Source of the DNA: Hydrogenophaga sp.
GTDB taxonomy: Bacteria > Pseudomonadota > Gammaproteobacteria > Burkholderiales > Burkholderiaceae_C
NCBI GenBank assembly: GCA_030653975.1
Contig: JAURYH010000031.1
Span: forward strand, 1-64,000
Direction: 5' to 3'
DNA length: 64,000 nt
Below the pieces are notes generated by a model. The model was given only the letters and a program-made list of their open reading frames with translations. It had not been told where the DNA came from and ran no database searches. Below are positions 31,372-51,415 of this stretch, in pieces. The translations under genes and the position numbers were made by a program. How positions within the stretch are numbered: the stretch's first letter is position 1; every line of letters starts with the position of its first letter.

Positions 31372-31376
31372 TCTGG

Positions 31377-32063: not shown

Positions 32064-32094
32064 GGTTACGACATGTTGCTGCCACATTGTAGGG

Positions 32095-32121
32095 TTGCGG
32101 CAAGGCCCCCGCGTTTACAAT
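32095..32121 (+). promoter_or_regulatory. Likely promoter of the cobalamin cluster
   Basis: TTGCGG at 32095-32100 and TACAAT at 32116-32121 lie just ahead of the riboswitch, with 15-base spacing (short of the ideal 17). The implied transcription start falls near 32128, at the first conserved riboswitch bases. Confidence 0.55.
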
Positions 32122-32127
32122 GCGCTC

Positions 32128-32350
32128 TGTTGGTGCTCGCGGTGTGGTTCACATGCCGCAGTTCAACGGGAAGCAGGAGGGAAAGTTCACACCGGACGGA
32201 CCTAACCTGCGCTGCCCCCGCAACGGTAAGCAGACGAGAAGCCTGATGTCTTCAGGCCACTCCGCTTTCATCTCACAACCACTGGACGGCCAACGCTGTC
32301 TGGGAAGGTGATGAAGGTTGTTCTGCCAGCCCGGATACCGGCCAACGAGG
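32128..32350 (+). promoter_or_regulatory. Cobalamin (AdoCbl) riboswitch
   Basis: The leader carries the hallmarks of a class I B12 riboswitch in order: a GGTGTGGTTCACA-like P2/P3 region, GGGAA, the core GCTGCCCCCGCAACGGTAAG, the B12-box region with AGCCTGATGTCTTCAGGCCACT, and the closing AGCCCGGATACCGGCC. It lies directly before btuB. In this family, bound adenosylcobalamin blocks translation or elongation, so the btu/cob genes should be shut down when B12 is plentiful. Confidence 0.95.
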
Positions 32351-32440
32351 TGGTGGTGCGTCCAGCCAATGGCGCGCCACCGTGACGCTCAGGCATCGTC
32401 GGGGAAGACGGTGAGAGCACTCCATCGTTTGTTCTCTTTC

Positions 32441-34282
32441 ATGAAAAACCGCAACCTGCGCGCGCCCCTGGCCGCGCTGCCCCTGGCCATCCTGGCCCTG
32501 TCTTCCCACGCCCAGACTTCTGGAACCTCCACGGCCACGGAGTTGCCTGAAACCGTGGTCACCGCCACGCGGTCTGCCATTCCTGTGGCCGATGTGGTGG
32601 CCGACGTTTCCATCGTTGACCGCGAGCAGATCGAGCGCAGCGGCGCCAACGGTCTGGCCGATGTGCTGTCGCGGGTGCCGGGCATCACCGTGACCCGCAA
32701 TGGCGGCCCCGCTTCGACCACCAGCGTGTACCTGCGCGGCGCCGAGACGCGTTTCACCGCCGTGTTCGTGGACGGGGTCCGCGTGGATTCGCAGTCCACC
32801 GGCGGCGCCAGCTGGAACGCGATCCCCTTGGCGCAGGTCGAGCGCATCGAGGTGCTGCGCGGCCCGGCGGCAGCGATCTACGGCTCCGACGCCCTGGCCG
32901 GTGTGGTCCAGATCTTCACACGCCAGGGCGAGGCGGGTTTCTTTCCCTCGGTCCATGTGGGCGTGGGCACGCACAACACGCGCGACATGAGCGTGTCGCT
33001 GCGGGGTGGGCAGGGCGCGGTGAGCTATGCGCTGGGCCTCTCGGGTGAGCGCAGCGACGGGTTCAACGCCAAGCCCTCGGGCAACCCCGACCGCGACGGC
33101 TACCGCAGCCAGTCGGTCTCGGGCCGGCTGGGCTGGAAGCTCGCCCCCGGCCACGAGCTGGAAGCGACGCTGCTCGACAGCGACCAGAAGGCGGGCTACG
33201 ACGGCTTTCTGCCCGGTCAGGACGACCAGAGCCAGCAAGACCTGCGCACCCTGGGGCTCACCTGGTCAGCGGCCTGGAGCGACACCTGGAAAACCCGCGT
33301 GGGTGTGACCCGCGGCACCGATCGCTACGAAACCACACCGTCGCCTTATCTGACCAACACGCGCATCGACACCTACCTGTTGCGCAACGAGTGGCGCATG
33401 GGTGCGGCCACCCTGAGCGCCGATCTGGAGCGCCGCGAAGACCGCCTCACGAACGGCAGCACCACACCCGAACAGACCGCTCGCGACCAGAACGCGCTCG
33501 CGCTGGGCTACACGCTGCGACAGGGCGCACACACGCTGCAGCTCAACGCACGCCACGACGACGACAGCGAGTTCGGTGGCCAGTCCACCGGTGGCGCCGC
33601 CTACGCGTTTGCGTTCACGCCCGCCTGGCGCGCCACGCTGTCGGCCGGCACCGCGTTCCGTGTGCCCACGCTGTTCCAGCGTTTCAGCTTCTACGGCACG
33701 CCCGATCTGAAGGCCGAAAGCGCCCGCAACTTCGAGGCCGGCCTGCGCTACCAGGCGGACCATGACCGGGCCGGTTTCACGCTGTACCGCAACGAGGTGA
33801 AGAACCTGATCGACTACGTCAGCGGGCCTGGCTCCTGTGCCAATGGTGTGGGGGAGTTCGCGGGTTGTTACGGCAACACGGGCAGGGCGCGTTACACCGG
33901 TGTCACGCTCAGCGGCGGCACCCGGGTGGGCGCAGTCAACCTCGGGGCTTCGCTCGATCTGATGCGCCCCAAAGACCAGGAGACCGGTCTGCGCCTCGCG
34001 CGCCGAGCCCAGACCCAGGCCACCCTGACAGCCGACACCCAGCTGGCCAGCTGGACACTGAGTGGCGAGGTGCAGCATGTCGGCTCGCGTTTCAACGACG
34101 CGGCCAACACGCAGCGCCTGCCGGCCTACAGCCAGCTGAACCTGTCGGCCAGCACCGCGCTCACGCCCGAGTGGAAGCTGCAGGCCCGTGTCGACAACCT
34201 GACCGACAAGGCCTACGAGTCGGTGCTGGGCTACGCCACCGCTGGCCGTACCTTGTACGTCGGCCTCAACTGGTCGCGTTGA
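32441..34282 (+). CDS. btuB: TonB-dependent vitamin B12 receptor BtuB
   Basis: A 613-residue outer-membrane beta-barrel receptor that imports corrinoids. It has a signal peptide (MKNRNLRAPLAALPLAILAL, cleavage after SSHA), a TonB box ELPETVVTATR, a plug domain (VDREQIERSGANGLADVLSR, VYLRGAETRFTAVFVDGVR) and a barrel that ends in LYVGLNWSR. The ATG at 32441 is the only one that gives a proper signal peptide. It is the first gene after the cobalamin riboswitch. Confidence 0.95.
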   Translation: MKNRNLRAPLAALPLAILALSSHAQTSGTSTATELPETVVTATRSAIPVADVVADVSIVDREQIERSGANGLADVLSRVPGITVTRNGGPASTTSVYLRGAETRFTAVFVDGVRVDSQSTGGASWNAIPLAQVERIEVLRGPAAAIYGSDALAGVVQIFTRQGEAGFFPSVHVGVGTHNTRDMSVSLRGGQGAVSYALGLSGERSDGFNAKPSGNPDRDGYRSQSVSGRLGWKLAPGHELEATLLDSDQKAGYDGFLPGQDDQSQQDLRTLGLTWSAAWSDTWKTRVGVTRGTDRYETTPSPYLTNTRIDTYLLRNEWRMGAATLSADLERREDRLTNGSTTPEQTARDQNALALGYTLRQGAHTLQLNARHDDDSEFGGQSTGGAAYAFAFTPAWRATLSAGTAFRVPTLFQRFSFYGTPDLKAESARNFEAGLRYQADHDRAGFTLYRNEVKNLIDYVSGPGSCANGVGEFAGCYGNTGRARYTGVTLSGGTRVGAVNLGASLDLMRPKDQETGLRLARRAQTQATLTADTQLASWTLSGEVQHVGSRFNDAANTQRLPAYSQLNLSASTALTPEWKLQARVDNLTDKAYESVLGYATAGRTLYVGLNWSR

Positions 34283-34290
34283 GATGGGAC

Positions 34291-34379
34291 TCCCCCCTGC
34301 GACGCTGCGCGTCTTGCCCCCGCCCGTTCCGGAGGGGGGACGCAGCCTGTGGCCGGGCGGAGCCCGTTCCATGGCTGCC
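34291..34379. repeat. Dispersed GC-rich repeat, copy 2 (inverted)
   Basis: Read on the minus strand this sequence follows copies 1 and 3: GCAGCCATGGAACGGGCTCC ... GGCTGCGTCCCCCCTCCGG ... GCGCAGCGTCGCAGGGGGG. It fills the space between btuB and the body of cobB. Where the other copies have CCGTGG, this one has CCATGG, which creates an in-frame ATG for cobB. Confidence 0.7.
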
Positions 34380-35756
34380 CTGGACGGGGCGCACGCTTCG
34401 GCGACGCCTGACGCTGTGACCTGTCCGGCGCTGCTGATCGCGGCGCCGGCCTCGGGCCAGGGCAAGACCACCGTGACGGCGGCGCTGGCCAGGCTGCACA
34501 CGCGGCAGGGCCGGCGGGTGCGGGTGTTCAAGTGCGGCCCGGATTTTCTGGACCCGCATTGGCACACGCTCGCCAGCGGCCACCCGGTGCACAACCTCGA
34601 CCTCTGGCTCAACGGCGAGGCCGACATCCGCGCACGGCTGTTTGAGGCCGCGTCGTCGAGTGACCTGATCCTGATCGAAGGGGTCATGGGCTTGTTCGAC
34701 GGCGAACCCAGCGCGGCCGACCTCGCGCGGCGCTTCGGGCTGCCGGTGCTGGCCGTGATCGACGCGTCAGCGATGGCGGGCACCTTCGGCGCGCTGGCGC
34801 ACGGGCTGCGCCACTACCAGGAAGACCTGCCCTGGGCGGGCGTGCTGGCCAACCGGGTCGCCAGCGAAGGGCACGCGCAGATGCTGCAGCGCTCGTTGCG
34901 CCCGGCGATGTCCGAAGGCGAATCGGTGGGCATCGACGCCGGCTGGCTCGGGGCCTTGATGCGCGACGCGGGTTTCACGCTGCCCGAGCGGCACCTCGGC
35001 TTGACGGTCGCGTCCGAGCTGCCCGACGCCATGGAGCGGCTTGACGCCTTGGCCGACGCGCTGGCGCAGGCGCCACTGGGGCGGCTCGACCACGCGGGCT
35101 GGCAGCGCTGGGTGGTGCGGTTCGATGCGGTGTCGCCATCGGTGCCCGCTCGCCGGCTGGCGGGACGCACGGTGGCGGTGGCGCGCGACGCGGCCTTCTG
35201 TTTCATCTACCCGGCCAACCTGGACTGCCTGCGCGCGCTCGGTGCCGAGCTGGTGTTTTTCTCGCCGCTGGCCGACGAACCGGTGCCGGCTTGCGACGCC
35301 GTGTGGCTGCCGGGCGGTTACCCGGAGCTGCACGCGGCCACGCTGGCAAAGGGTGTGCACTGTCGTGTCACGCTGGCCGAACATGTCGCGACCGGTCGGC
35401 CCGTCTGGGCCGAGTGCGGCGGCATGATGCCGCTGTTTGACGCCCTGACCACCGTCGACGGCGACGAGCACCCGATGTGGGGCCTGCTGCCCGGCCGCGT
35501 GGTGATGCAGAAGCGCCTGGCCGCCCTGGGACCGCAGCGCTGGGGCACGGCGCAGGGCGAGCTGCGTGGTCACACCTTCCACTACTCGACCACCGAGTCG
35601 CCGTTGCATCCGCGGTGCCGGACCGAGGCGCAGCGCGCGGGCGGGCGCGGCGAGGCCATCTACGCGCAGGGCCCGGTACGCGCCAGTTATTTCCACGCCT
35701 GGTTTGCCTCCAACCCCGAGGCCGTTGCCTCGCTGTTTCTCGCGGAGGTCGTGTGA
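34371..35756 (+). CDS. cobB: Cobyrinate a,c-diamide synthase
   Basis: A protein of about 461 residues that amidates the a and c side chains of cobyrinic acid or its hydrogenobyrinic equivalent with glutamine and ATP. The N-terminal P-loop domain reads LLIAAPASGQGKTTVTAALA, with CGPDFLDPHWH and EGVMGLFDG. The C-terminal type I glutamine amidotransferase domain has its cysteine in WAECGGMM. The start is uncertain: ATG 34371 (inside a repeat), ATG 34284 (one base after btuB) or GTG 34416 are all in frame; conserved sequence begins near 34420. It ends with a GTGA overlap with the next gene. Confidence 0.92.
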   Translation: MAALDGAHASATPDAVTCPALLIAAPASGQGKTTVTAALARLHTRQGRRVRVFKCGPDFLDPHWHTLASGHPVHNLDLWLNGEADIRARLFEAASSSDLILIEGVMGLFDGEPSAADLARRFGLPVLAVIDASAMAGTFGALAHGLRHYQEDLPWAGVLANRVASEGHAQMLQRSLRPAMSEGESVGIDAGWLGALMRDAGFTLPERHLGLTVASELPDAMERLDALADALAQAPLGRLDHAGWQRWVVRFDAVSPSVPARRLAGRTVAVARDAAFCFIYPANLDCLRALGAELVFFSPLADEPVPACDAVWLPGGYPELHAATLAKGVHCRVTLAEHVATGRPVWAECGGMMPLFDALTTVDGDEHPMWGLLPGRVVMQKRLAALGPQRWGTAQGELRGHTFHYSTTESPLHPRCRTEAQRAGGRGEAIYAQGPVRASYFHAWFASNPEAVASLFLAEVV

Positions 35757-36574
35757 GCACGCTGCACCTTGGACCTCAACGCATCGTCTGCCTGACCGAG
35801 GAGACCACCGAATGGCTCTACCTGTTGGGGCAGGAGCAGCGCATCGTCGGCATCAGCGGCTACACGGTGCGGCCGCGCCGGGCGCGCGACGAGAAGCCCA
35901 AGGTGAGTGCGTTCCTGAACGCGAAGATCGACAAGATCCTCGCGCTGCAGCCCGATTGCGTGTTCGGCTTCTCCGATCTGCAGGCCGACATCGCCGCCTC
36001 ATTGATCCGCGCCGGCGTGCAGGTGACGGTGTTCAACCAGCGCAGCGTGGACGAGATTTTTTCCATGCTGTTCCAGGTGGCGGCGATGGTGGGCTGCGCT
36101 GAAGAGGGCCTGGCGCGCATCGACGTCATGCGCCTGCGGCTGGAGGCCATCCGTGCCGAGGTGACCGCGCTGGTGGCGGCTGGCAAGCGCCGCCCCAAGG
36201 TGTTTTTTGAAGAGTGGGACGAGCCGCACATCAGCGGCATCCGCTGGGTGTCGGAGCTGCTGGGCATCGCGGGCGGCGACGACGTGTTTCCCGAGCTGGC
36301 GGTGCAGTCGCTGGGCAAGGACCGCATCATTGCCGAAAGCGCGGAGATCGTGGCGCGCTCGCCCGACATCGTGATCGGCTCCTGGTGTGGGAAGAAGTTC
36401 CGCCCCGAGAAGGTGGCGGCGCGCGCTGGGTGGCAGGACGTGCCCGCCGTGCGCGACGGCCAGCTGTTCGAGATCAAGTCGGCCGACATCCTGCAGCCCG
36501 GCCCGGCAGCTTTGACCGACGGCGTGGCGCAGATGCACCGCATCGTGACCGAGTGGATGAAGCAACATGGCTGA
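35753..36574 (+). CDS. BtuF-like cobalamin-binding protein without signal peptide
   Basis: A 273-residue member of the periplasmic-binding-protein class III family (BtuF/FhuD fold). It begins directly with the binding domain (STLHLGPQRIVCLTEETTEW, then GISGYTVRPRRA) and has no signal peptide, so it should stay in the cytoplasm. The start is the GTG at 35753, overlapping the cobB stop as GTGA. Similar proteins occur in B12 clusters of other betaproteobacteria and are usually called cobalamin-binding proteins; their task is not established. A second, secreted BtuF is encoded two genes on. Its end overlaps cobU by eight bases. Confidence 0.85.
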   Translation: MSTLHLGPQRIVCLTEETTEWLYLLGQEQRIVGISGYTVRPRRARDEKPKVSAFLNAKIDKILALQPDCVFGFSDLQADIAASLIRAGVQVTVFNQRSVDEIFSMLFQVAAMVGCAEEGLARIDVMRLRLEAIRAEVTALVAAGKRRPKVFFEEWDEPHISGIRWVSELLGIAGGDDVFPELAVQSLGKDRIIAESAEIVARSPDIVIGSWCGKKFRPEKVAARAGWQDVPAVRDGQLFEIKSADILQPGPAALTDGVAQMHRIVTEWMKQHG

Positions 36575-37142
36575 TCTGGTGCGCCGCGAATTCATCCTCG
36601 GTGGCCAGCGCAGTGGCAAGTCTCGCCGCGCCGAAGCGCTGGCTTGCCAGTGGCTGGAGCGTTCGCCCGATCACCGCGCCGTGCTGATCGCCACCGGCCA
36701 GGCCTGGGATATCGAGATGCGCGAACGCATCGCTCGCCACCAGCGCGACCGCGCCGAACGCGTGCCGGGCATGACCACGGTGGAGGAGCCGCTGGCACTG
36801 GCCGAGGCCTTGCGCCGTGTCAGCGAGGCGAAGACCCTGGTGGTGGTCGATTGCCTGACGCTGTGGATGACCAACCTGCTGCTGCCGACCGACGCTGCGA
36901 AAGCCCTGGATGAGACCGCCGTGATCGCCGCGGGCCACGCGCTGTGCGAGGCCATCACCGCAGCACCCGGGGCGGTGGTGTTGGTGGGCAACGAGATCGG
37001 CCTGGGCGTGATCCCCCTGGGGCGCGAGGTGCGCCAGTTCGTGGACGCGCTGGGCCGTTTGAACCAGAGCGTGGCGGCCGCCTGCGAGCGCGTCACCTTG
37101 ATGGCGGCGGGCCTGCCGCTGACACTGAAAGACCAGCCATGA
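36567..37142 (+). CDS. cobU: Adenosylcobinamide kinase / adenosylcobinamide-phosphate guanylyltransferase
   Basis: A 191-residue bifunctional enzyme (CobU/CobP) that phosphorylates adenosylcobinamide and transfers GMP to give AdoCbi-GDP. The P-loop is LGGQRSGKS at residues 11-19. The guanylylated histidine is in RIARHQRDR near 58, and VVDCLTLWMTNLL, VGNEIGLGVIP and GRLNQSVAAACE are family segments. It overlaps the BtuF-like gene by eight bases and btuF by four. Confidence 0.95.
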   Translation: MADLVRREFILGGQRSGKSRRAEALACQWLERSPDHRAVLIATGQAWDIEMRERIARHQRDRAERVPGMTTVEEPLALAEALRRVSEAKTLVVVDCLTLWMTNLLLPTDAAKALDETAVIAAGHALCEAITAAPGAVVLVGNEIGLGVIPLGREVRQFVDALGRLNQSVAAACERVTLMAAGLPLTLKDQP

Positions 37143-38041
37143 ATCCGATGCGTGACATCCTGGCCGCTGTGGCGCTCGTGGGGCTGGCGCTGCTGTCCCT
37201 GCCGGCCCGCGCCGCGCTGCAGATCACCGACGACCACGGTGTGGTGGTGAGCTTCGAGCGTTCGCCGCAGCGCATCGTGAGCCTGCTGCCTTCGCTGGCC
37301 GAGACGGTGTGCGAACTCGGCCAGTGCCAGCGCCTGGTGGGTGTGGACCGCTACACCAACTGGCCCGCGAGTGTGAAGGCGCTGCCTCAGGTGGGCGGCG
37401 GGCTGGACCCGAGCATCGAACAGATCGTGGCGCTGCGGCCCGATGTGGTGCTGATGGCGACGTCGTCCCGTGCCGGCGAACGCTTGCGCGCGCTGGGCCT
37501 CAAGGTGGTGGCGCTGGAGCCCAAGACGCACGCCGACGTGCAGCGCGTGATGCTCAAGATCGGCCAGTTGCTGGAGGTGCCCGACGCGCAGAAAATCTGG
37601 CGCGCCATCGATGCCGCCGTGATGGCCGCCGCGCAGTCGCTGCCCGCCAGCGTGCGCGGCACGCGGGTGTATTTCGAGGTCAACCCGGGGCCGTACGCCG
37701 CCGGTGAAAGTTCGTTCATCGGCGAGACGCTCACGCGCCTGGGCGCGAAGAACATCGTGCCCGCGTCGCTCGGGCCGTTCCCCAAGCTCAACCCCGAGTA
37801 CATCGTGCGCGCCGACCCCGACCTGATCATGGTCGGTCAGCGCAGCGTGGACGGCATGCTGCAGCGTCCAGGCTGGATGAGCATGCGCGCCATGCGCGCG
37901 CAGCGCCTGTGCGTGTTCCCGGCCGACGAGTCCGACACCCTGGTCCGGCCTGGTCCGCGCATGGCCGAGGGGGCCCGGTTGATGGCGCGTTGCCTGACTG
38001 AGAAGGCGGCTGGCGCGAAGCCGAATGGAGTGCGCCCGTGA
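37139..38041 (+). CDS. btuF: Vitamin B12 ABC transporter, periplasmic binding protein BtuF
   Basis: A 300-residue periplasmic protein that hands cobalamin to BtuCD. Residues 1-25 form a signal peptide (LAAVALVGLALLSLPARAA). The binding domain has RIVSLLPSLAETVCELGQ and VGVDRYTNWPASVKALPQVG, typical of BtuF. The ATG overlaps the cobU stop (ATGA), and its end overlaps btuC (GTGA). It completes the set BtuB-BtuF-BtuC-BtuD for uptake. Confidence 0.93.
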   Translation: MNPMRDILAAVALVGLALLSLPARAALQITDDHGVVVSFERSPQRIVSLLPSLAETVCELGQCQRLVGVDRYTNWPASVKALPQVGGGLDPSIEQIVALRPDVVLMATSSRAGERLRALGLKVVALEPKTHADVQRVMLKIGQLLEVPDAQKIWRAIDAAVMAAAQSLPASVRGTRVYFEVNPGPYAAGESSFIGETLTRLGAKNIVPASLGPFPKLNPEYIVRADPDLIMVGQRSVDGMLQRPGWMSMRAMRAQRLCVFPADESDTLVRPGPRMAEGARLMARCLTEKAAGAKPNGVRP

Positions 38042-39201
38042 ACGATTCGGCGCAGGGCCGCCCCAAGCCGGATCAGCCCCCTCGGGGGGCAGCGACCCGC
38101 GCAGCGGTGGAGCATGGGGGTCCTTCGACACGCCGCGCGTCCTGGCTGGTGGTGGGCATGCTGCTCGCCGCGCTGGGCCTGGCCGCGCTGGGCGTGTGTG
38201 TGGGCAGCGCGGGGTTTGAAAACCTGATCGGTCCGCTGCTGAACCCTCAGGTTGATCCGTCGGCCACTGCGATGGCGCAGCAGATCGTGTGGGAGATCCG
38301 CTTGCCGCGCACGCTGGGGGCCTGGGGGGCGGGTGCCTTGCTGGGCCTGGCCGGTGCGGTGGCGCAGGGCCTGTTCCGCAACCCGCTGGCCGATCCGTTT
38401 CTGCTTGGCAGCGCCTCGGGCGCCTCGCTCGGCGTGGCGCTGGCGCTGGCCGCCATGGGCGGCGGCGCCGGCATGCTGGGCGCCAGCATGATGGACAGCG
38501 GCGTGGCGGTGAGCGTGTTCTCCAGCAGCGTCTGGGTGCGGCTGGGACTGACCGGCGCGGCGTTCTGTGGCGCGGTTCTCGCGGTACTGCTCACGCTGGC
38601 GCTCTCGCGTGGTGTGCAGCACACGCTGCGCCTGCTGCTGGCGGGCGTGGTGGTCGGCGTGGTGCTCGGTGCCATGACGCACCTGGTGCTGCTGTTTTCG
38701 CCCGAATCGCTGCAGGCCATGCAGGCCTTCATGCTCGGCTCCACCAGCTTCGTGGGCTGGACCGCCTGCGTGCTGATGGTGGCCGTGTGGGCCGTGTGTG
38801 CGTTGTCCGCCTGGTTGTTCGCGCGCGTGCTCGATGGCCTGAGCCTGGGCGACGCGACCGCGCGCAGCCTGGGCCTGCCGCTGGGCCCCATGCGCGCCGC
38901 GCTGGTGGCGGTGCTGGCGCTGGCCACCGGCACCGCGGTGGCGCAGACCGGGCTGATCGCTTTTGTGGGGCTGGCCGCGCCGCACCTGGTGCGTTCCATG
39001 GTCAAGACCACCAGCGCCCGCCTCATGTTGCTGGCCAGTTGCATGGGCGGAGTGTTGCTGATGGCGGCCGACACCCTGGCGCGCTGGCTGATCGCGCCGC
39101 AGGAGCTGCCGGTGGGCGTGCTCACCGCCGTGCTCGGCGGCGGTTACCTGCTGTGGCTGATGCAGCGCAACACGCGCGTGTCGCGGGGGGCAGGGCTGTG
39201 A
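38038..39201 (+). CDS. btuC: Vitamin B12 ABC transporter permease BtuC
   Basis: A 387-residue FecCD-family inner-membrane permease with about ten helices. Conserved segments include RLPRTLGAWGAGALLGLAGA, NPLADPFLLGSASGAS and GLAAPHLVRSMV. The GTG at 38038 overlaps the btuF stop. Residues 1-34 (NDSAQGRPKPDQPPRGAATR) do not resemble BtuC; they come from a repeat-like sequence and precede the first helix at about residue 38 (WLVVGMLLAALGLAALGV). Confidence 0.92.
   Translation: MNDSAQGRPKPDQPPRGAATRAAVEHGGPSTRRASWLVVGMLLAALGLAALGVCVGSAGFENLIGPLLNPQVDPSATAMAQQIVWEIRLPRTLGAWGAGALLGLAGAVAQGLFRNPLADPFLLGSASGASLGVALALAAMGGGAGMLGASMMDSGVAVSVFSSSVWVRLGLTGAAFCGAVLAVLLTLALSRGVQHTLRLLLAGVVVGVVLGAMTHLVLLFSPESLQAMQAFMLGSTSFVGWTACVLMVAVWAVCALSAWLFARVLDGLSLGDATARSLGLPLGPMRAALVAVLALATGTAVAQTGLIAFVGLAAPHLVRSMVKTTSARLMLLASCMGGVLLMAADTLARWLIAPQELPVGVLTAVLGGGYLLWLMQRNTRVSRGAGL
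38060..38130. repeat. GC-rich repeat-like element inside the btuC 5' end
   Basis: The sequence CCCCCTCGGGGGGCAGCGAC is a strong inverted repeat, followed by CCGCGCAGCGGTGGAGCATG. It has the look of a second repeat type common in Comamonadaceae genomes. It is translated as part of the variable N-terminus of BtuC. No second copy is in this window, so the assignment rests on recollection of such elements. Confidence 0.45.
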
Positions 39202-40013
39202 ACGCGCCCATGAAAGCACCGGCCATGGCCATTGAGGCGCAGGAGCTGAGTGCGCGGCTGGGCGACACCGAGATCCTGCACGGCATCAACCTGGCGCTGC
39301 CGCGTGCGCGCTGGACCAGCATCGTCGGCCCCAATGGAGCGGGCAAGTCCACCCTGCTCAAGGCGCTGGCCGGACTGTTGCCGCACAGCGGTGGCGTGTT
39401 GTTGCTGGGCCGGCCGCTTGAAGGCTGGCCGAACCGTACCCGCGCGCAGCAACTGGCCTGGCTGGGTCAGAACGAATCCAGTAGCGACGACCTCACCGTG
39501 TGGGACGTGGCCATGCTCGGGCGCCTGCCGCACCAGGCCTGGCTCAGCCCGCCCAGCGCCGCCGACCACGCCGCCGTGGAGCGCGCGCTGCGTGCCACCC
39601 AGGCCTGGGAGTGGCGCGCCCGCTCGCTCGGCCAGCTCTCGGGCGGCGAGCGCCAGCGCGTGCTGCTGGCCCGCGCGCTGGCCGTCGAGGCACAGGTGCT
39701 GCTGATGGACGAACCGCTGGCCAACCTGGACCCGCCGCACCAGGCCGACTGGCTCGACCTCGTGCAGGCGCTGGTGCGTGAAGGCAAGACCGTGGTGAGC
39801 GTGTTGCACGAGATTGCCATGGCCCTGCACGCCGACGAGCTGGTGGTGATGGCCCAGGGCCGCATCACCCACCAGGGCCGTTGCGCCGAGCCGGCGACGC
39901 ACCGCGCGCTGGAAGCCGTGTTCGACCACCGCATCGAAGTCCACGCACTGCAAGGGCAGTGGGTGGCGCTGCCGCGCATCACGCCTCTACAGAAGCCGAA
40001 CCATGCAGATTGA
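39198..40013 (+). CDS. btuD: Vitamin B12 ABC transporter ATPase BtuD
   Basis: A 271-residue ABC ATPase. Walker A is GPNGAGKST, the signature is LSGGERQRVLLARAL, Walker B is LLMDEPLANLD, and the switch histidine is in SVLHEIAMA. The start is the GTG at 39198 overlapping the btuC stop; the ATG at 39210 is an alternative. It pairs with BtuC as the energising subunit. Its last 11 bases overlap cobO. Confidence 0.94.
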   Translation: MNAPMKAPAMAIEAQELSARLGDTEILHGINLALPRARWTSIVGPNGAGKSTLLKALAGLLPHSGGVLLLGRPLEGWPNRTRAQQLAWLGQNESSSDDLTVWDVAMLGRLPHQAWLSPPSAADHAAVERALRATQAWEWRARSLGQLSGGERQRVLLARALAVEAQVLLMDEPLANLDPPHQADWLDLVQALVREGKTVVSVLHEIAMALHADELVVMAQGRITHQGRCAEPATHRALEAVFDHRIEVHALQGQWVALPRITPLQKPNHAD

Positions 40014-40572: not shown

Positions 40573-40589
40573 CCCTGTGGAGACACCCG

Positions 40590-41600: not shown

Positions 41601-41657
41601 AGACACCCCCAGCGCCTCGCTGATGGCTGAGGCGCCCTCATTCCAAGGAGACAACCC

Positions 41658-43453: not shown

Positions 43454-44123
43454 CGGCTGTTTCGTCACCGGCACCGACACCGGTGTGGGCAAGACGCTGG
43501 TGAGCGCCGCGCTGCTGCACACGCTGGCGCGCCGGCACCGCCGCGTGGTCGGCATGAAGCCGGTGGCGGCGGGTCTGGTGGCGCAGGGTAGGGAATGGGT
43601 CAGCGAAGACGTGCTCGCCCTGCGCGCCGCCTCCACCGTGGCCGTGCCCGTCGCGCTCGACAACCCGGTGGCCCTGCCCGATGCCCTGGCGCCGCACCTC
43701 GCGGCGGCGCGCGCGGGCCGGGCCGTGACGGTGGCGGAGCTGTTCGCCGCGCATGCCGCGCTGCGCGATCTGGCCGACGTGGTGGTGGTCGAAGGCGCGG
43801 GCGGCTGGCGCGTGCCGCTCAACGACAGCGAGACCCTGGCTGACTTGGCGGTGGCACTGGCCCGGCCTGTCGTGCTGGTGGTCGGCCTGCGGCTGGGTTG
43901 CCTGAACCACGCACTGCTGAGCGCCGAGGCCATCCGCGCCGATGGCCTGCAACTGGCCGGCTGGGTGGCCAATGCGATCGACCCCGGCATGGCCTGCCGC
44001 GAAGAAAACATGGACACGCTGCGCCACTGGCTGCCAGCGCCGCTGCTGGGCGTCGTGCCCTGGCACCCCCAAACCCCCGACGCACGCCAGATCGTGCTGG
44101 ACCTGCCCGACACCTGGCGATGA
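43443..44123 (+). CDS. bioD: Dethiobiotin synthetase
   Basis: A 226-residue ATP-dependent carboxylase that closes the ureido ring of dethiobiotin. The P-loop is [10 protein letters not shown] at residues 9-18, followed by KPVAAGL, and [12 protein letters not shown] is the second conserved motif. It overlaps bioA by 11 bases, and bioF starts 10 bases after its stop. Confidence 0.95.
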
Positions 44124-44133
44124 AGGATCTGCG

Positions 44134-45399
44134 ATGAGCTGGCTGAACGAATTCGATGACCGCCTGGCCGCGCTGGACGCGCAGTCGCTGCGCCGCGTGC
44201 GCCGCGCCGTGGCGCCCGAGCAGGGCGCCCGGCTCAACGTGGACGGCGTGTCCCTGCTGGCCTTCTGCAGCAACGACTACCTGGGCCTCGCGCAAGACCC
44301 GTTGCTGCGCCAGGCGGTGCACGCCGCAGTGGACCGCTACGGCGTGGGCTCCGGGGCCTCGCCCATGGTCAGCGGCCACAGTGTGGCCAACGCGGCGCTG
44401 GAGCACGAGCTGGCTGAGGCCGTGGGCCTGCCGCGCGCGCTGTATTTCTACGCCGGCTACGCCACCAACGCGAGCACCGTGCCCGCGCTGGTGGGCGTGG
44501 GCGATGCGCTGTTTTCCGACGCGCTGAACCACGCCTGCCTGATCGACGGCGCGCGCCTGTCCAAGGCCACAGTGCACCGCTTCCCCCACGGCGATCTGGC
44601 CCGGCTCGACGCGCTGCTGGCCGCCAGCCCGGCGCGCCGCAAGCTGGTGATCAGCGACGCCGTGTTCAGCATGGACGGCGACGTGGCCGACATCACCGGC
44701 CTGCACGCGCTGTGCGAGCGGCACGATGCCTTGCTGCTGCTGGACGACGCGCACGGCTTCGGCGTGCTGGGGCCGCAGGGCCGTGGCGCGCTGGCCGCCG
44801 CCGGTCTCACCGGGCCGGGCGCTTCGCCGCGCGTGCTCTACATGGCCACGCTGGGCAAGGCCCTGGGCGTGGCGGGCGCTTTCGTGGCCGGGCCCGAGTC
44901 CCTGGTGGAGTGGCTGCTGCAGAAGACCCGCAGCTACACCTACGCCACCGCCGCGCCGGCCTTGCTGGCCGAGGCGGTGCGCGCCGGCCTGCGCTGCGTG
45001 CTCGGCGCCGACGGCGAGCGCCGCCGCCGGCACTTGACCGACTTGATTGCCCAACTGCGCGAAGGCCTCGCGCCCGGGGCCAACGCCGCGGTGGATGCCG
45101 CCGGCTGGACCCTGATGCCCTCGCACACCGCGATCCAGCCGCTGGTGATCGGCGACAACGCCGCCGCGCTGACCGTGATGGCCGCGCTGCGCGAGCAGGG
45201 CATCTGGGTGCCCGCGATCCGCCCGCCCACGGTGCCGGCGGGCACGGCGCGGCTGCGCATTGCCTTGTCGGCCGCGCACCAGGCCGAAGACGTGGACGCC
45301 CTGCTGGGCGCGCTGCGGGCCGCTGCGGCCGTCTTGAGCGCGGGCCGCGCTGAAGAGTCGGGCCAGCGCCGCGTGGCCGTGGCGGCGTTGGAGGCTTGA
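44134..45399 (+). CDS. bioF: 8-amino-7-oxononanoate synthase
   Basis: A 421-residue PLP-dependent alpha-oxoamine synthase that condenses pimeloyl thioester with alanine. It contains [38 protein letters not shown] and the PLP lysine in [13 protein letters not shown]. The start at 44134 ([14 protein letters not shown]) fits the family. It ends four bases before cbiB, which ties the biotin block directly to the second half of the cobalamin genes. BioC and BioH are not here. Confidence 0.95.
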
Positions 45400-45403
45400 G
45401 CCC

Positions 45404-46381
45404 GTGGCCGAACTGGCAGCGCTGCCGCCCTGGACCGTGATGGCCCTTGCCATCGGGGTGGCGCTGTTCATCGACCGCTGCTGGGGCGAGCCGCCACCCC
45501 GCTGGCACCCGGTGGTGTGGATGGGCCACTACCTCGGGGCGCTGGGTCGGCGCATCGCGCCGGTGATGGGCGGGCCGGCGGCCGGTGCGGCGCGGCCGTT
45601 CGTGGCGGGCGCGCTGGCCTGGGCCTTCGGGGCGCTGCTGGTGGTGGTGATCGCTTTCGCGGCGACCCGGGTCGTGAGCGGTTGGCCGGGCTGGCTGCAG
45701 GCGCTGGCGCTGGGGGTGTTGCTCAAGCCGCTGCTGGCCTGGCGCATGCTGCGCGACGAGGTGCGCGCGGTGGAGCGGGCGCTGGGCGGGTCCACCGAGG
45801 CGGGGCGCGCGCGCCTGGCCTGGCTGGTCAGCCGCGACGTGGCGCCGCTCTGCGAGCGCGAGGTGCGCGAAAGCGCCATCGAGACCCTGGCGGAAAACCT
45901 CAACGACTCGGTCGTGGCACCGCTGTTCTGGTTCGCCGTGGCCGGCCTGCCCGGTGCGGCGCTCTACCGCTTCGCCAACACGGCCGACGCCATGTGGGGC
46001 TACCGTGGCGAGCGCCAGGGCCGCGACTGGAGCTGGGCCGGCAAGTGGGCCGCCCGCGCCGACGATGTGTTGTCCTGGCTGCCCGCGCGCATCACGGCCG
46101 CATTGCTGGGTCTGCTGGGCGCCGCGGGCAGGCTGCGGCAGTTGCCGGTGCAGGCGGGCCTGACGCCCTCACCCAACAGCGGCTGGCCCATGGCCGCCAT
46201 GGCGCTGGCGCTGGACGTGCGCCTGGGCAAGCCCGGCGTCTACACCCTGCATCCCCACGGGCGTGGCGCGCTGCCGGCCGACACCGACCAGGCCTTGCGG
46301 CTGGCGGGCCGTGTGGTGTTCACTTGCGCCCTGTTGGCCGCGGCGTGGGCTGCGGCGGGTTTCTGGAGCCTGTTCCGATGA
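45404..46381 (+). CDS. cbiB: Adenosylcobinamide-phosphate synthase CbiB
   Basis: A 325-residue inner-membrane enzyme that joins adenosylcobyric acid to the (R)-1-amino-2-propanol arm or its phosphate. Family motifs are WHPVVWMGHYLG, SRDVAPLCEREVRESAIETL, AENLNDSVVAPLFWF and NTADAMWGYRGER. Four to five hydrophobic segments are seen. It uses a GTG start (GTGGCCGAACTG) four bases after bioF and overlaps the next gene by four bases. Confidence 0.93.
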   Translation: MAELAALPPWTVMALAIGVALFIDRCWGEPPPRWHPVVWMGHYLGALGRRIAPVMGGPAAGAARPFVAGALAWAFGALLVVVIAFAATRVVSGWPGWLQALALGVLLKPLLAWRMLRDEVRAVERALGGSTEAGRARLAWLVSRDVAPLCEREVRESAIETLAENLNDSVVAPLFWFAVAGLPGAALYRFANTADAMWGYRGERQGRDWSWAGKWAARADDVLSWLPARITAALLGLLGAAGRLRQLPVQAGLTPSPNSGWPMAAMALALDVRLGKPGVYTLHPHGRGALPADTDQALRLAGRVVFTCALLAAAWAAAGFWSLFR

Positions 46382-47367
46382 CACATCCACACGGTGGCCC
46401 CGACGCGATGGGCGTGCCCCGCTGGGACTTTTCCACCAACGCCAACGCCTGCGGGCCGAGCCCCATGGCGCTGGCCGCGGTGCGGCAGGCCGACGCGGCG
46501 CATTACCCCGACCCGCAGCACACGGCGCTGCGCGAGGCGCTGGCCGGGTTCCACGGCGTCGCGGTCGAACGCATCGTGATCGCGGCGAGCGCCAGCGAGT
46601 TCATCGGGCGCATCAGTGCCAGCGTGGCCCGCGCGGGCGGGCAGCGCGCCTGGTGGCCCACGCCCGCTTACGGCGACTACGCACACGCCGCGCAGGCCTG
46701 GGGCCTGCAGCGGGCGAACGAGCCCGCGCAGGCCGACCTGCTCTGGCTGTGCGAACCATCGAGCCCGCTGGGCAGCGCCGAAGCCATGGCGAGCGCCGTG
46801 GCGCAGCGGGGCGGTGTGGTCGTGATCGACCGCGCCTACGAGCCGCTGCGCCTGTCCGGCCGCTGCAGCCTGGCCGCCGACGCGCTGGACCGCACCTGGC
46901 AGCTCTGGACCCCCAACAAGGCGCTCGGCCTCACAGGGGTGCGCGGCGCCTACGCCATCGCGCCGGTGCAGCGCCAGGAACTGACGCGCGTGCTGGAGCG
47001 GCTGGCGCCGTCCTGGCCGCTGGGCGCGCATGGCGTGGCGATGCTGCGGGCCTGGGTGCGGGCCGATACACAGCAGTGGCTGACCGAGAGCCTGGAGAGC
47101 CTGCGCGACTGGAAAGCGCAGCAGCAGGCCCTGTTGGCCGGGCTGGGCTGGACCTGCCTGCCCAGCGAGGCCAACTATTTCTGTGCCCGCGCACCGGCGG
47201 CGCTGGACACGCCGGCCCTGCGCGCGCAAGGCATCAAGCTGCGTGACACCACTTCGCTCGGTCTGCCCGACCACTGGCGCCTGGGTGTGTTGCCGCCCGC
47301 CGCGCAGGCCGCCCTGCGCCATGCCTTGCAGAGCACCCCGCTGCGCTGCGTGGAGGTATCCGCGTGA
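46378..47367 (+). CDS. cobD: L-threonine-O-3-phosphate decarboxylase-like aminotransferase-fold enzyme
   Basis: A 329-residue PLP enzyme of the CobD/CobC group, which makes aminopropanol phosphate for the nucleotide-loop arm. It contains WDFSTNANACGPSP (the DFSxNxNPxGP form), HYPDPQHTALREAL and the PLP lysine in WTPNKALGLTGVRGAY. At 329 residues it is shorter than Salmonella CobD (364), in the range of CobC of aerobic pathways. It overlaps cbiB (ATGA) and cobQ (GTGA), its functional partners. Confidence 0.88.
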   Translation: MTHPHGGPDAMGVPRWDFSTNANACGPSPMALAAVRQADAAHYPDPQHTALREALAGFHGVAVERIVIAASASEFIGRISASVARAGGQRAWWPTPAYGDYAHAAQAWGLQRANEPAQADLLWLCEPSSPLGSAEAMASAVAQRGGVVVIDRAYEPLRLSGRCSLAADALDRTWQLWTPNKALGLTGVRGAYAIAPVQRQELTRVLERLAPSWPLGAHGVAMLRAWVRADTQQWLTESLESLRDWKAQQQALLAGLGWTCLPSEANYFCARAPAALDTPALRAQGIKLRDTTSLGLPDHWRLGVLPPAAQAALRHALQSTPLRCVEVSA

Positions 47368-48833
47368 CCGCCGTCTGCGTGATGGTGCTCGGCACCACCA
47401 GCGGCGCGGGCAAGAGCTGGCTGACCACGGCGCTGTGCCGCCACTACGCGCGCCAGGGCCTCCAGGTCGCGCCGTTCAAGGCGCAGAACATGAGCAACAA
47501 CGCGCGGGTGGTGGCTGGCGTGGACGGTGCTTACGGCGAGATCGGCTCGGCACAGTATTTCCAGGCCCTTGCCGCCAGCGCGCAACCCGAGGTGCGCATG
47601 AACCCGCTGCTGCTCAAGCCCGAGGCCGACACGCACAGCCAGGTGGTGCTGATGGGGCAGGTGAGTGAAGAACTCTCCACCATGCCCTGGCGCGGCCGCA
47701 GCGAAAAAGTCTGGCCGGCGATCACCGCCGCGCTGGACGCGCTGCGCGCCGAGAACGACGTGGTGGTGATCGAGGGCGCGGGCTCGCCGGCCGAGATCAA
47801 CCTGCACGCCAGCGACATCGTCAACATGCGCATCGCCCGCCACGCGCAGGCGCGCTGCCTGCTCGTGACCGACATCGACCGCGGCGGTGCCTTCGCCCAC
47901 CTCTACGGCACCTGGGCGCTGCTGCCGGCCGACGAGCAGGCGCTGATCCGCGGCTTTGTGCTCAACAAGTTCCGCGGCGACGCGACGCTGCTCGCGCCCG
48001 GTCCGCAGATGCTGCAGGACCTGACCGGCGTGCCCACGGTGGCGACGCTGCCGATGTGGTGGCAGCACGGCCTGCCGGAAGAAGACGGTGTCTTTGACGA
48101 CCGCACCCTCGCTTCCGGCGCGGTGCAGACAACGATCGCCGTCATCGCCTGGCCGCGCATCAGCAACCTCGACGAGTTCCAGCCGCTGAAGAACGTGCCC
48201 GGCCTGCGCCTGGTCTGGGCGCGCATGCCGGCCGACTGCGTGGGCGCCGACTGGATCGTACTGCCGGGGTCCAAATCCACCGTGGCCGACCTCGCCTGGC
48301 TGCGCGCGCAGGGGCTGGACCGTGCGGTGGCCGAACACGCCGCGTTGGGCGGGGCGGTGCTCGGCATCTGCGGCGGGCTGCAGATGCTGGGCGAGGCGCT
48401 GATCGACACGCACGGCATCGACGGCAACGCGCCCGGTCTGGGCCTGCTGCCGCTGGTGACGGCGTTCGAACCGCAGAAAACCGTGCGCCACACGCAGACG
48501 CTGTTCACCGAATGTGCCGGTCCCTGGAGCGCGCTCTCGGGCGTGAGCGTCTCGGGCTACGAAATCCACCACGGCCAGACCGCACAACACCCGGCCATGG
48601 CCGCCAAGGGCGACGTGGCGCGCGCCGTGTTGCCCGATGGCCTGGGCTGGCAGAACACCGCCGGCAACGTGCTCGGCGTCTACCTGCACGGCCTGTTCGA
48701 AGACCCGGCCGTGCTGCACGCGCTGTTTGGCGCCAGCGCACCCACGCTGGAAAGCGTGTTCGACGGCCTGGCCGACTTTCTTCAAACCCATGTCGAGCCC
48801 GGTGTGCTCGACGCTCTCATCCAACCGGACTGA
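47364..48833 (+). CDS. cobQ: Cobyric acid synthase
   Basis: A 489-residue glutamine-dependent amidase that amidates the b, d, e and g side chains of adenosylcobyrinic acid a,c-diamide. The P-loop domain opens VLGTTSGAGKSWLTTALCR, with FKAQNMSNNARVV and the PGSKSTVADL region. The C-terminal GATase domain has its cysteine in LGICGGLQMLG and the pair histidine in YLHGLFE. It uses a GTG start that overlaps the previous stop. Confidence 0.96.
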   Translation: MTAVCVMVLGTTSGAGKSWLTTALCRHYARQGLQVAPFKAQNMSNNARVVAGVDGAYGEIGSAQYFQALAASAQPEVRMNPLLLKPEADTHSQVVLMGQVSEELSTMPWRGRSEKVWPAITAALDALRAENDVVVIEGAGSPAEINLHASDIVNMRIARHAQARCLLVTDIDRGGAFAHLYGTWALLPADEQALIRGFVLNKFRGDATLLAPGPQMLQDLTGVPTVATLPMWWQHGLPEEDGVFDDRTLASGAVQTTIAVIAWPRISNLDEFQPLKNVPGLRLVWARMPADCVGADWIVLPGSKSTVADLAWLRAQGLDRAVAEHAALGGAVLGICGGLQMLGEALIDTHGIDGNAPGLGLLPLVTAFEPQKTVRHTQTLFTECAGPWSALSGVSVSGYEIHHGQTAQHPAMAAKGDVARAVLPDGLGWQNTAGNVLGVYLHGLFEDPAVLHALFGASAPTLESVFDGLADFLQTHVEPGVLDALIQPD

Positions 48834-48836
48834 ACC

Positions 48837-49904
48837 ATGACCACCACTGTTCCCACCATCCAGGACATCACCCAGCCCGTACTGGCTGCGCGCCTGCAGC
48901 ACAAACTGGACAACAAGACCAAGCCGCTGGGCTCGCTCGGCCGCATCGAGTCGCTGGCCCAGCGCATAGCCCTGATCCTGGGCAGCGAAACGCCTGAGTT
49001 GAAAGCGCCACAACTCGTGGTGTTCGCCGGCGACCATGGCCTGGCCGCGCGCGGCGTCTCGGCCTACCCGAGCGACGTGACCTGGCAGATGGTGGAAAAC
49101 TTCCTGGCCGGCGGTGCCGCGGTGAGCGTGCTCGCGCGGCAACACGGCATCGGCCTCACGGTGGTGGACTGCGGCGTGCGGCACGACTTCGCGCCGCGGC
49201 CCGGACTGGTCATCAACAAGATCGCCCCGGGTACGGCCGATGCCCTCGAAGGCCCGGCCATGAGCGCCACACAGTGCGAAGCGGCGCTCGCCAACGGGGT
49301 CGCTCTGGTGCGCGGGCTGCCGGGCAACGCGCTGCTGCTGGGTGAAATGGGCATTGGCAACACCTCGGCGGCTTCGCTGCTGCTCGCGCGCCTGGCCGGG
49401 CTGTCCGTGGCCGACTGCACCGGTGCCGGCACCGGGCTCGACGCCGACGCGGTGCAACGCAAGATCGGCATCCTGCGCCAGGTGCTGGCGCGCCACCCCG
49501 ATGCCAGGGACCCGCTGGCCGCGCTGGCCGCGTTCGGCGGCTTCGAGATCGCCACCATGGTGGGCGCGGTGCTGCAGGCCGCGGCCGAACGCCGCGTGAT
49601 CGTGGTGGACGGTTTCATCGCCAGCGCCGCCGTGCTGGTGGCCAGCGCGCTGCAACCCGCCGTGCTGCAGCGCTGCGTGTTCGCGCACCGCTCGGGCGAA
49701 CGCGGCCACGCGCTCATGCTCGCCCACCTGCGCGCCGAGCCGCTGCTCGACCTGGGCCTGCGCCTGGGCGAGGGCTCGGGCGCGGCCATGGCCTGGCCGC
49801 TGTTGATGAGTGCCTGTGCCATCCTGCGCGAGATGGCGAGCTTCGAATCGGCCGGGGTGTCGCGGCAGGACGAGGTGGCAGCGACAACACCCACCCAGGC
49901 TTGA
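48837..49904 (+). CDS. cobT: Nicotinate-nucleotide-dimethylbenzimidazole phosphoribosyltransferase
   Basis: A 355-residue enzyme that makes alpha-ribazole 5'-phosphate, the lower ligand precursor. It contains KTKPLGSLGRIESLA, FAGDHGLAARGVSAYP, GEMGIGNTSAASLLL, TGAGTGLD and the ending GEGSGAAMAWPLL. It begins three bases after the cobQ stop. The presence of CobT implies a dimethylbenzimidazole-type cobamide, either made elsewhere or salvaged. Confidence 0.96.
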   Translation: MTTTVPTIQDITQPVLAARLQHKLDNKTKPLGSLGRIESLAQRIALILGSETPELKAPQLVVFAGDHGLAARGVSAYPSDVTWQMVENFLAGGAAVSVLARQHGIGLTVVDCGVRHDFAPRPGLVINKIAPGTADALEGPAMSATQCEAALANGVALVRGLPGNALLLGEMGIGNTSAASLLLARLAGLSVADCTGAGTGLDADAVQRKIGILRQVLARHPDARDPLAALAAFGGFEIATMVGAVLQAAAERRVIVVDGFIASAAVLVASALQPAVLQRCVFAHRSGERGHALMLAHLRAEPLLDLGLRLGEGSGAAMAWPLLMSACAILREMASFESAGVSRQDEVAATTPTQA

Positions 49905-49914
49905 GACGAAGGAC

Positions 49915-50829
49915 ATGGAGCGAGGTGACTTCGACCCAGGCAGCCGTGGAACCGGCTCCGCCGGGCCACCAGCTGCGTCCTACCGGGGGGGCGACGCGCA
50001 GCGGCGCAGGGGGGTGTTCCTGTTCTTCCGTCACTTCTTCATCGCCCTCCAGTTCTTCACCCGCATCCCGGTGACCGGGCGGCTGGCCGACTGGGTGGGT
50101 TTTTCGCCCGCCATGCTGCGCGCGAGCGCCGCGCATTTTCCGGGGGTGGGCTGGGTGGTCGGCGGGCTCTCGGCGGCGGTGTTTGCTGGCCTGCTCGCGC
50201 TGCTGCCCGCGTCGCCCGCAGCCCCCTGGGTGGCGGCCGTGCTGAGCAGCGCGTTCAGTGTCTGGCTGACCGGCGCGTTCCATGAAGACGGGCTGGCCGA
50301 CACGGCCGATGGCCTGGGCGGCGCGGTGAACCGCGAACGCGCGCTGGCCATCATGAAGGACTCGCGCATCGGCAGCTACGGCGCGGTGGCGCTGGTGCTG
50401 GCCTTGTTGTGCAAGGTGGCGCTTATCGCGCTGCTGGCGCAGGCCGGCGGCCTGCTGCTGGCGAGCGCGGCGCTGTTGGGTGCCCACGTCAGTTCGCGCC
50501 TCATGCCGCTGTTCATCATCCGCACGCTGCCGCATGTGGGTGATACGCCCACCTCCAAGTCCAAACCACTGGCCGAGAGCATCGGCAATGCCGGTCTGGC
50601 TGCAGGCCTGCTCTGGTGGGCGCTGGCCATGGCGCTGGTGGGCTGGGCGCTGCCGGGCGCGCCCTGGCCGCTGGCGGTGCTGGGTGCGCTGCTCGGCCTG
50701 GCCTGGATGTGGCGCCTGCTGCGCCGCCGCCTGCAGGGTTTCACCGGCGACGGTCTGGGCGCCACGCAGCAGGTGTGCGAAGTGGCGTTTTACCTGGGCA
50801 TGGCACTGGGACTGGGCTGGCGCGCATGA
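49915..50829 (+). CDS. cobS: Adenosylcobinamide-GDP ribazoletransferase
   Basis: A 304-residue inner-membrane cobalamin(-phosphate) synthase that joins AdoCbi-GDP with alpha-ribazole. Core motifs are FIALQFFTRIPV and the metal site HEDGLADTADGLGG, then SYGAVALVL; about six helices follow. The ATG at 49915 gives 33 N-terminal residues encoded by a dispersed repeat (copy 3), unlike any CobS. The GTG at 50014 (VFLFFRHFFIAL) just before the conserved part is an equally good start. It overlaps cobC by four bases. Confidence 0.9.
   Translation: MERGDFDPGSRGTGSAGPPAASYRGGDAQRRRGVFLFFRHFFIALQFFTRIPVTGRLADWVGFSPAMLRASAAHFPGVGWVVGGLSAAVFAGLLALLPASPAAPWVAAVLSSAFSVWLTGAFHEDGLADTADGLGGAVNRERALAIMKDSRIGSYGAVALVLALLCKVALIALLAQAGGLLLASAALLGAHVSSRLMPLFIIRTLPHVGDTPTSKSKPLAESIGNAGLAAGLLWWALAMALVGWALPGAPWPLAVLGALLGLAWMWRLLRRRLQGFTGDGLGATQQVCEVAFYLGMALGLGWRA
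49940..50016. repeat. Dispersed GC-rich repeat, copy 3
   Basis: The sequence opens GCAGCCGTGGAACCGGCTCC and closes GCGGCGCAGGGGGGTG, in the same orientation as copy 1 at 31097-31187, with a shorter middle. It occupies the space between cobT and the conserved part of cobS and is open in the cobS frame. Its last three bases are a possible GTG start for CobS. Confidence 0.75.
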
Positions 50830-51380
50830 AGCTCTGGCTGCTGCGCCACGCCCGGGTGGAGCTCGAATCCGGGTTCTGTTACGGCGCGACCGACGTGCCG
50901 GCCAACGCCGCGCGCACGCTGCAGGCCGCCCAGGCCGCGGCGGCCCTGCTGCCACCCGGCTTGCCGGTGTGGGTGTCGGGCCTGGGCCGCGCGCAGCAGC
51001 TGGCGCTGGAACTGGCCAGCCGGCGACCCGACCTGGGCGACCCGACGGTCGACACCCGCCTGAACGAAATGGACTTCGGGCATTGGGAGCTGCAGCGCTG
51101 GGACGACATCCCGCGCGCCGCGTTCGACGGCTGGATGGCCGACTTTGCGCACCACCGCTTTGGCGGCGCCGAAAGCACGCAGCAGCTCATCCATCGTGTG
51201 GCCGACGCGTTGGACGAACTGCGTGACAGCGCGGTCAGCGAAGCGGTCTGGGTGACCCACGCCGGCGTGATCCGCGCGGCGCAGTTCGTCGCCACCCATG
51301 GGCGTGGCCCCATCGGTGGCGTGGCGCAGTGGCCGAAAGACGCGCCCGGGACCGGCGGCCACCTCTGCCTGGACTGGTAG
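50826..51380 (+). CDS. cobC: Alpha-ribazole phosphatase, histidine phosphatase family
   Basis: A 184-residue histidine phosphatase. The phosphohistidine motif reads LLRHARVE near residues 5-12 (RHA rather than the usual RHG), the acid residue lies in LNEMDFGHWE, and the second histidine is in VTHAGVIRA. In a cobalamin cluster this enzyme removes the phosphate from alpha-ribazole phosphate or cobalamin phosphate. It overlaps cobS by four bases and closes the cluster. Confidence 0.88.
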   Translation: MKLWLLRHARVELESGFCYGATDVPANAARTLQAAQAAAALLPPGLPVWVSGLGRAQQLALELASRRPDLGDPTVDTRLNEMDFGHWELQRWDDIPRAAFDGWMADFAHHRFGGAESTQQLIHRVADALDELRDSAVSEAVWVTHAGVIRAAQFVATHGRGPIGGVAQWPKDAPGTGGHLCLDW

Positions 51381-51415
51381 TCCGGCGCTCAGCCGTTCAG
51401 TGCACACTGTGGCCC

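Follow-up and report, generated by a model that had tools for sequence, protein, structure and literature searches.

Biotin genes and panD embedded in a riboswitch-led cobalamin gene string of Hydrogenophaga

Does the cobalamin (B12) status of a Hydrogenophaga cell also set its supply of biotin? The question is raised by a stretch of 64,000 nucleotides of contig JAURYH010000031.1 from Hydrogenophaga sp. (assembly GCA_030653975.1; the whole stretch analysed is called the window below). In it, a cobalamin riboswitch, presumably for adenosylcobalamin (AdoCbl), is followed by a co-directional string of B12 genes on the + strand, and the block bioB-panD-bioA-bioD-bioF sits between cobO and cbiB. 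This arrangement, which an earlier note on the same DNA had pointed out, was confirmed as a whole, and the physical coupling of the biotin and B12 genes is solid. We consider it rather probable that riboswitch, B12 genes and the embedded biotin genes with panD form one long operon, and that expression of the biotin genes falls with AdoCbl, at least partly.

The gene string and its riboswitch leader

The genes are arranged in the order btuB, cobB, a periplasmic-binding-protein-like (SBP) gene, cobU, btuF, btuC, btuD, cobO, bioB, panD, bioA, bioD, bioF, cbiB, cobD, cobQ, cobT, cobS and cobC. The earlier note had counted 17 co-directional genes, which has to be corrected to 19; its gaps of 17 nucleotides (nt) between cobO and bioB and 4 nt between bioF and cbiB agree exactly with the coordinates. 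Eleven of the 18 junctions overlap, seven of them as ATGA or GTGA, one as TTGA (panD-bioA) and three by 8 or 11 nt, and the other seven are gapped by 1–57 nt. If cobB starts at the internal ATG 34371, the first gap would be 88 nt. The string from btuB to cobC has the co-direction and the short gaps or overlaps of an operon. The 17-nt cobO-bioB spacer contains a GGAGA element and leaves no room for a promoter, which we count in favour of a single operon.

Genes were named by matches to NCBIfam and Pfam profiles. Of the biotin genes, bioB (40590..41600; TIGR00433, 386.3 bits, cut-off 225; Radical_SAM and BATS domains in Pfam), bioA (42071..43453; TIGR00508, 503.1 bits, cut-off 405) and bioD (43443..44123; TIGR00347, 150.9 bits, cut-off 83.3) exceed the curated cut-offs, and bioF (44134..45399; TIGR00858, 422.2 bits, cut-off 426.45) is narrowly under its own. 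The aspartate 1-decarboxylase gene panD (41658..42074) matches TIGR00223 with 153.7 bits (cut-off 106). The G+C content at third codon positions is 0.89–0.94 in the biotin genes and panD versus 0.86–0.92 in the B12 genes; given this closeness, a foreign origin of the block, which was also considered, shows no sign.

The aptamer (32114..32360; RF00174, 74.4 bits versus a gathering score of 31.5) is the sole match of its family found in the window's genome. A putative promoter, TTGCGG-N15-TACAAT (32095..32121), is placed at its start, and TACAAT or TAGAAT was seen by eye at this place in all 22 leaders compared. On the 3' side of the aptamer lies the hairpin CATCGTC-GGGGAA-GACGGTG (32398..32417), the loop of which is complementary to the aptamer loop L5. 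Its 7-bp stem covaries among the 22 leaders: every one of the 154 pair cells holds a standard pair, and three pairs are changed on both sides. The hairpin loop reads GGGGAA in 21 leaders and GGGGAC in one, and L5 contains CCCC in all 22, a complementarity that fits the kissing-loop design of cobalamin riboswitches.

An in-frame GTG is present at 32411, upstream of the btuB ATG. The GGGGAA of the loop resembles a ribosome-binding site and is located 38–41 nt upstream of the btuB ATG (32405–32441 in the window, and in the leaders). A GTG directly follows this loop sequence in 16 of the 22 leaders, and in the window it is in the btuB frame; in locus L146 the leader GTG starts a short frame, the stop of which overlaps the btuB start.

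No sigma-70-like site was returned by a promoter scan of 32000–51999 (0.6 expected), which required spacers of 16–18 nt and so missed the N15 riboswitch promoter. In the same region, 17 terminator-like sites were found on both strands (6.8 expected). The eight on the + strand before 51380 each lie within coding genes, and none was located between riboswitch and btuB, at cobO-bioB or at bioF-cbiB. A candidate terminator in the 57-nt bioB-panD spacer was rejected; its hairpin lacks a U run, and spacer lengths between 11 and 105 nt occur among the listed relatives.

Occurrence in the genus and the wider family

According to the earlier note, a lack of synteny in close relatives would refute the coupling; the counts that follow show that synteny exists. 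Our sample comprised 60 Hydrogenophaga genomes including the window's own, and the surroundings of cobO were read in the 45 that carry it. Biotin genes or panD lie inside the B12 cluster in 37 of these 45, bioB included in 36. Both bioB and bioA are in the cluster in 16 genomes; bioD and bioF also follow in 13 of them, and the stretch ends in the other three (G003, G073 and G083). In 12 genomes bioB alone is located at cobO/cbiB, and in six it is placed between cobD and cobQ. The contig ends after bioB-panD in G074 and after bioB in G025, and G066 has only panD in its B12 cluster. Among named species, H. pseudoflava NBRC 102511 carries cobO-bioB-cbiB (L066), and in H. aromaticivorans cobO-bioB-panD-bioA can be followed up to a contig end (L065). 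The idea that three cofactors are coupled applies to the window and to part of the genus, as panD is embedded in 9 of the 45 genomes; the more widely conserved core is bioB, alone or with bioA, bioD and bioF.

One flank only was seen in G003, G025, G073, G074, G080 and G083; the locus of G004 was put together from two contigs, and G061 was not judged because of a contig end. G032 and G072, both counted as positive, have further cobO loci without biotin genes. In G010, which is without cobO, bioB lies between btuD and cobQ. When the lists were compared by eye, 31 of the 37 genomes proved to have a riboswitch upstream of the cluster, on its contig and strand; G014, G016, G066, G074, G082 and G083 have no listed riboswitch on the cobO contig.

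The cobO-bioB spacer measures 14–31 nt in many relatives, and 128 nt and 137 nt in loci L064 and L144, respectively. About 8 kb with CobW and CobN genes separate cobO from bioB in L148, and a nitroreductase-like gene, which we take to resemble BluB by sequence, is found there in L182. GC-rich palindromic stretches, each about 100 nt long and similar to one another, occur beside bioB in different spacers of different species (L064, L144, L177 and L199); they resemble copies of an intergenic repeat dispersed in the genus. CobO matches are broken near residue 74 in G004, G017, G019, G028 and G063, with about 80–100 nt between the pieces; in the cobO of L182 (7898–8563) the frame is open over 221 amino acids, indicating an in-frame insertion there.

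The wider family was sampled with 120 genomes from 119 genera (completeness 90 or more), of which 77 matched the BioB part of the query, 73 the CobO part and 60 both. In ten of these 60, bioB and cobO share a strand and are no more than 20 kb apart, namely in the Hydrogenophaga genomes G000 and G001 and eight genomes of eight other genera (G096, G105, G106, G107, G108, G130, G134 and G194); random placement would give about 0.3 linked genomes, an estimate that ignores kinship. In all eight loci outside Hydrogenophaga bioB is among B12 genes, at differing positions. It is located between cobO and cbiB in six, with about 1 kb after cobO before bioB in G096 and G107 and, in G096, also 5 kb before cbiB. 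In G130 it lies between cobQ and cobT, and in the riboswitch-led locus of G134 panD-bioA-bioD-bioF-bioB come after cobC and are followed by a binding-protein gene. A riboswitch is present in seven of the eight and was not found in G096. These synteny counts argue that the arrangement is not due to chance, and the coupling is wider than the window alone could reveal. In the B12 cluster of G194, a second cobalamin riboswitch (L230, 4742–4933, − strand, 117.5 bits) lies downstream of bioB.

Proposed control of the biotin genes by B12

The btuB riboswitch of E. coli responds to AdoCbl by bringing about Rho-dependent termination within the btuB gene (PMC11162775). Such a mechanism would hit all downstream genes, and the biotin genes are therefore expected to fall as well. 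When AdoCbl is plentiful, the CCCC of L5 would pair with the hairpin loop GGGGAA, this kissing loop would hinder translation of btuB, and Rho would then stop transcription early, lowering the downstream genes including the biotin genes; under B12 shortage the whole gene string would rise. We infer the single transcript, the kissing loop, the Rho step, the size of the B12 effect on the biotin genes and the physiological reason given below. Control of the biotin genes by B12 is likely. It is probably partial, because full repression would remove the sole biotin synthase, and a leak or an internal promoter is likely.

The genome of the window (4.09 Mb in 74 contigs, 99.8% complete) carries a single copy of panD and one full bioB match, with one weak match elsewhere (19 bits). 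BioY, the one type of biotin transporter that the search covered, was not found. BioC gave 12 weak matches, none above cut-off. The sole BirA found (270 amino acids) has the ligase domains and is without the N-terminal DNA-binding domain, and for this reason no known biotin regulator is visible. PMC5343134 likewise states that the DNA-binding domain was lost from beta-proteobacterial BirA and that these bacteria have no BirA regulons. Simple patterns for BirA, BioR and BioQ operators (the BirA consensus is given in PMC545781) gave no site in 31800–51500 except one BirA-like half-site (32113–32120), which coincides with the riboswitch promoter. The locus shares the set of bioB, bioA, bioD and bioF with BirA-regulated biotin operons, but differs in its BirA without DNA-binding domain and in that no operator pair was seen.

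MetE was not found in this genome (MetH was not searched for), so that methionine and S-adenosylmethionine (SAM) are probably B12-dependent. We propose as a physiological reason that B12 would support methionine and hence SAM, which BioB and BioA consume; this rests on the MetE result and on established enzymology. Coenzyme A, biotin and AdoCbl would also meet in propionyl-CoA metabolism, a second possible reason that would bring in panD. The AdoCbl enzyme methylmalonyl-CoA mutase was matched twice in the genome, and one such gene is located at G000:C65:91917-93455 on the window's contig, about 28 kb past the window. CobJ gave two matches far under the cut-off (57.8 and 48.4 versus 246 bits), and corrin-ring synthesis, judged by CobJ only, looks absent. 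The operon thus looks like one for B12 uptake together with salvage and late synthesis, in a cell whose methionine supply probably depends on B12.

A stronger version of the proposal can be put forward only tentatively. In it, the AdoCbl riboswitch would be the main regulator of biotin synthesis, replacing the lost BirA repressor; B12 shortage, which would limit SAM without MetE, would raise BioB and BioA, added B12 would lower biotin output and could make cells biotin-limited, and selection for the coupling would explain the repeated capture of bioB.

Several results weigh against B12 control of the biotin genes, or against its generality. The bioB start lies 8.2 kb downstream of the riboswitch. 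With a single bioB and panD and no BioY found, strong repression by B12 would mean biotin starvation, which favours a leak or an internal promoter. Seven of the 45 Hydrogenophaga genomes have no biotin gene in the cluster (G005, G006, G007, G017, G019, G028 and G068); in G006, G017 and G019, no real bioB match was present anywhere in the genome. In the family, bioB and cobO are unlinked in 50 of the 60 genomes, and bioB is in reach in 10 of 80 named CobO loci, which were selected because their CobO resembles that of the window and which come partly from the same genomes; this speaks against a general rule. Finally, a search with the window's proteins matched no biotin gene or panD at 14 other cobalamin riboswitch loci of the genus, two of these stretches being only 3 kb long. 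In L223 and L226 the B12 operon itself follows the riboswitch, and at others of these loci CbiD-like, cobB-like, TonB-receptor and unrelated genes were seen by eye downstream. The 14 loci also count against a larger B12-biotin regulon made up of units that each have a riboswitch of their own.

The distance to bioB and the need for biotin under plentiful B12 are equally the points that lend weight to a different account, in which the biotin genes are transcribed mainly from internal, B12-independent promoters in cobO or earlier, and the influence of the riboswitch is confined to btuB and the genes near it. The longer spacers in L064 and L144 are in its favour, and the scan can miss promoters of this GC-rich group. 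The short spacers of many relatives argue weakly against it, as does a weak test for a promoter at the cobO 3' end, in which synonymous conservation showed no bioB-linked rise (22 genes with bioB behind versus 22 without). It would also leave the repeated placement of bioB in B12 clusters unexplained, a further weak objection, and we regard it as rather unlikely. The B12 cluster might instead be a tolerant landing site, where biotin genes settled by neutral relocation without regulatory meaning. Other genes have indeed entered between cobO and cbiB, including a DUF1636 gene (L069), a nitroreductase-family gene (L101 and L182), cobW with cobN (L148) and a Diphthami_syn_2 gene (L235), and stand-alone bioB-panD-bioA remnants elsewhere indicate that the block moves. 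However, several of these inserts are B12 genes themselves, and bioB has entered the B12 clusters of several genera, at more than one position, which makes neutral relocation improbable. The occurrence of bioB without bioA, bioD and bioF at cobO/cbiB in 12 of 45 genomes could also mean that the embedded BioB works in B12 metabolism rather than in biotin synthesis. Against this stands the full BioB match with both of its domains. Moreover, five of the genomes with bioB alone embedded (G001, G009, G012, G013 and G022) have one bioB only, which, if biotin is made in these cells, has to be the gene that serves its synthesis. A role in B12 metabolism is therefore very hard to credit.

The coupling of B12 and biotin genes in one riboswitch-led operon is the reading that we retain. 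The earlier note's interpretation, its gene count apart, is supported in part, by the tight co-directional string and the conservation in relatives, while the effect of B12 on biotin and beta-alanine supply that it envisaged stays a prediction; its remark that such coupling was not known to be described is in line with a literature search, confined to open-access papers, that showed no biotin genes under a cobalamin riboswitch. The regulon survey PMC3766115 sorts genes into four categories (synthesis of B12, transport of B12, transport of cobalt, and isozymes of B12-dependent enzymes), and the words "biotin" and "bioB" are both missing from its main text. The AdoCbl-riboswitch btuB/cob operons (RF00174; E. 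coli btuB and the PMC3766115 regulons) resemble the present locus in the riboswitch before btuB and the genes for B12 uptake and synthesis, but here biotin genes and panD are carried as cargo. Mesorhizobium symbiosis islands (PMC7643969, available part) likewise keep biotin, pantothenate and other vitamin genes on one element, but their cobalamin riboswitch is upstream of metE and no biotin gene is placed behind it. For beta-proteobacteria, whose BirA is stated to have lost its DNA-binding domain, the repeated placement of biotin genes behind a B12 riboswitch suggests a concrete way in which biotin synthesis may be controlled. If the proposed control is true, it predicts an easily measured phenotype, a lowering of biotin production by B12, and the B12 of a community would change how much biotin such members make.

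History of the embedded bioB and other features of the locus

A first BioB tree of 55 rows (63 sequences extracted, eight dropped as duplicates or truncated) separates two BioB types in the genus, both of which are present at cobO/cbiB, and the cobD/cobQ placement forms one group of six. In a second tree, built from 22 of these 63 sequences together with 14 new ones (36 rows), six changes between embedded and stand-alone bioB are needed, four of them forced by well-supported branches. Stand-alone bioB-panD-bioA with bioA in pieces was found in G023 and G031, and by the same pattern in G028 and G032. These remnants suggest that the B12 operon may have acquired its biotin genes from such a stand-alone block.

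Among the B12 genes, the names btuB, btuF, btuC, btuD, cobU, cobD, cobS and cobC rest on matches below cut-off. Upstream of the biotin block are btuB, for a TonB-dependent B12 receptor (32441..34282; TIGR01779, 410.9 bits, below the cut-off of 599.7), cobB/cbiA, for cobyrinate a,c-diamide synthase (34284..35756; NF002204, 425.4 bits), the SBP gene (35753..36574; PF01497, 145 bits), cobU (36567..37142; NF004469, 160.6 bits, cut-off 161), a btuF-like gene (37139..38041; NF002894, 59 bits), a btuC-like gene (38038..39201; NF003001, 171 bits), a btuD-like gene (39198..40013; ABC ATPase families) and cobO (40003..40572; TIGR00708, 194.3 bits, above cut-off). Downstream follow cbiB (45404..46381; TIGR00380, 193.1 bits, cut-off 165.9), the L-threonine-phosphate decarboxylase-like cobD (46378..47367; TIGR01140, 113.6 bits), cobQ (47364..48833; TIGR00313, 412.9 bits), cobT (48837..49904; TIGR03160, 436.8 bits), cobS (49915..50829; TIGR00317, 102.7 bits, cut-off 110) and the alpha-ribazole phosphatase-like cobC (50826..51380; TIGR03162, 134.1 bits). 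A DUF445 gene of the same orientation lies 3' of cobC. On the − strand of the window, a 6S RNA (RF00013, 57.8 bits) is located at 31195–31373, which is about 0.7 kb ahead of the riboswitch, and a 6S RNA near the riboswitch was also found in L146 and L155.

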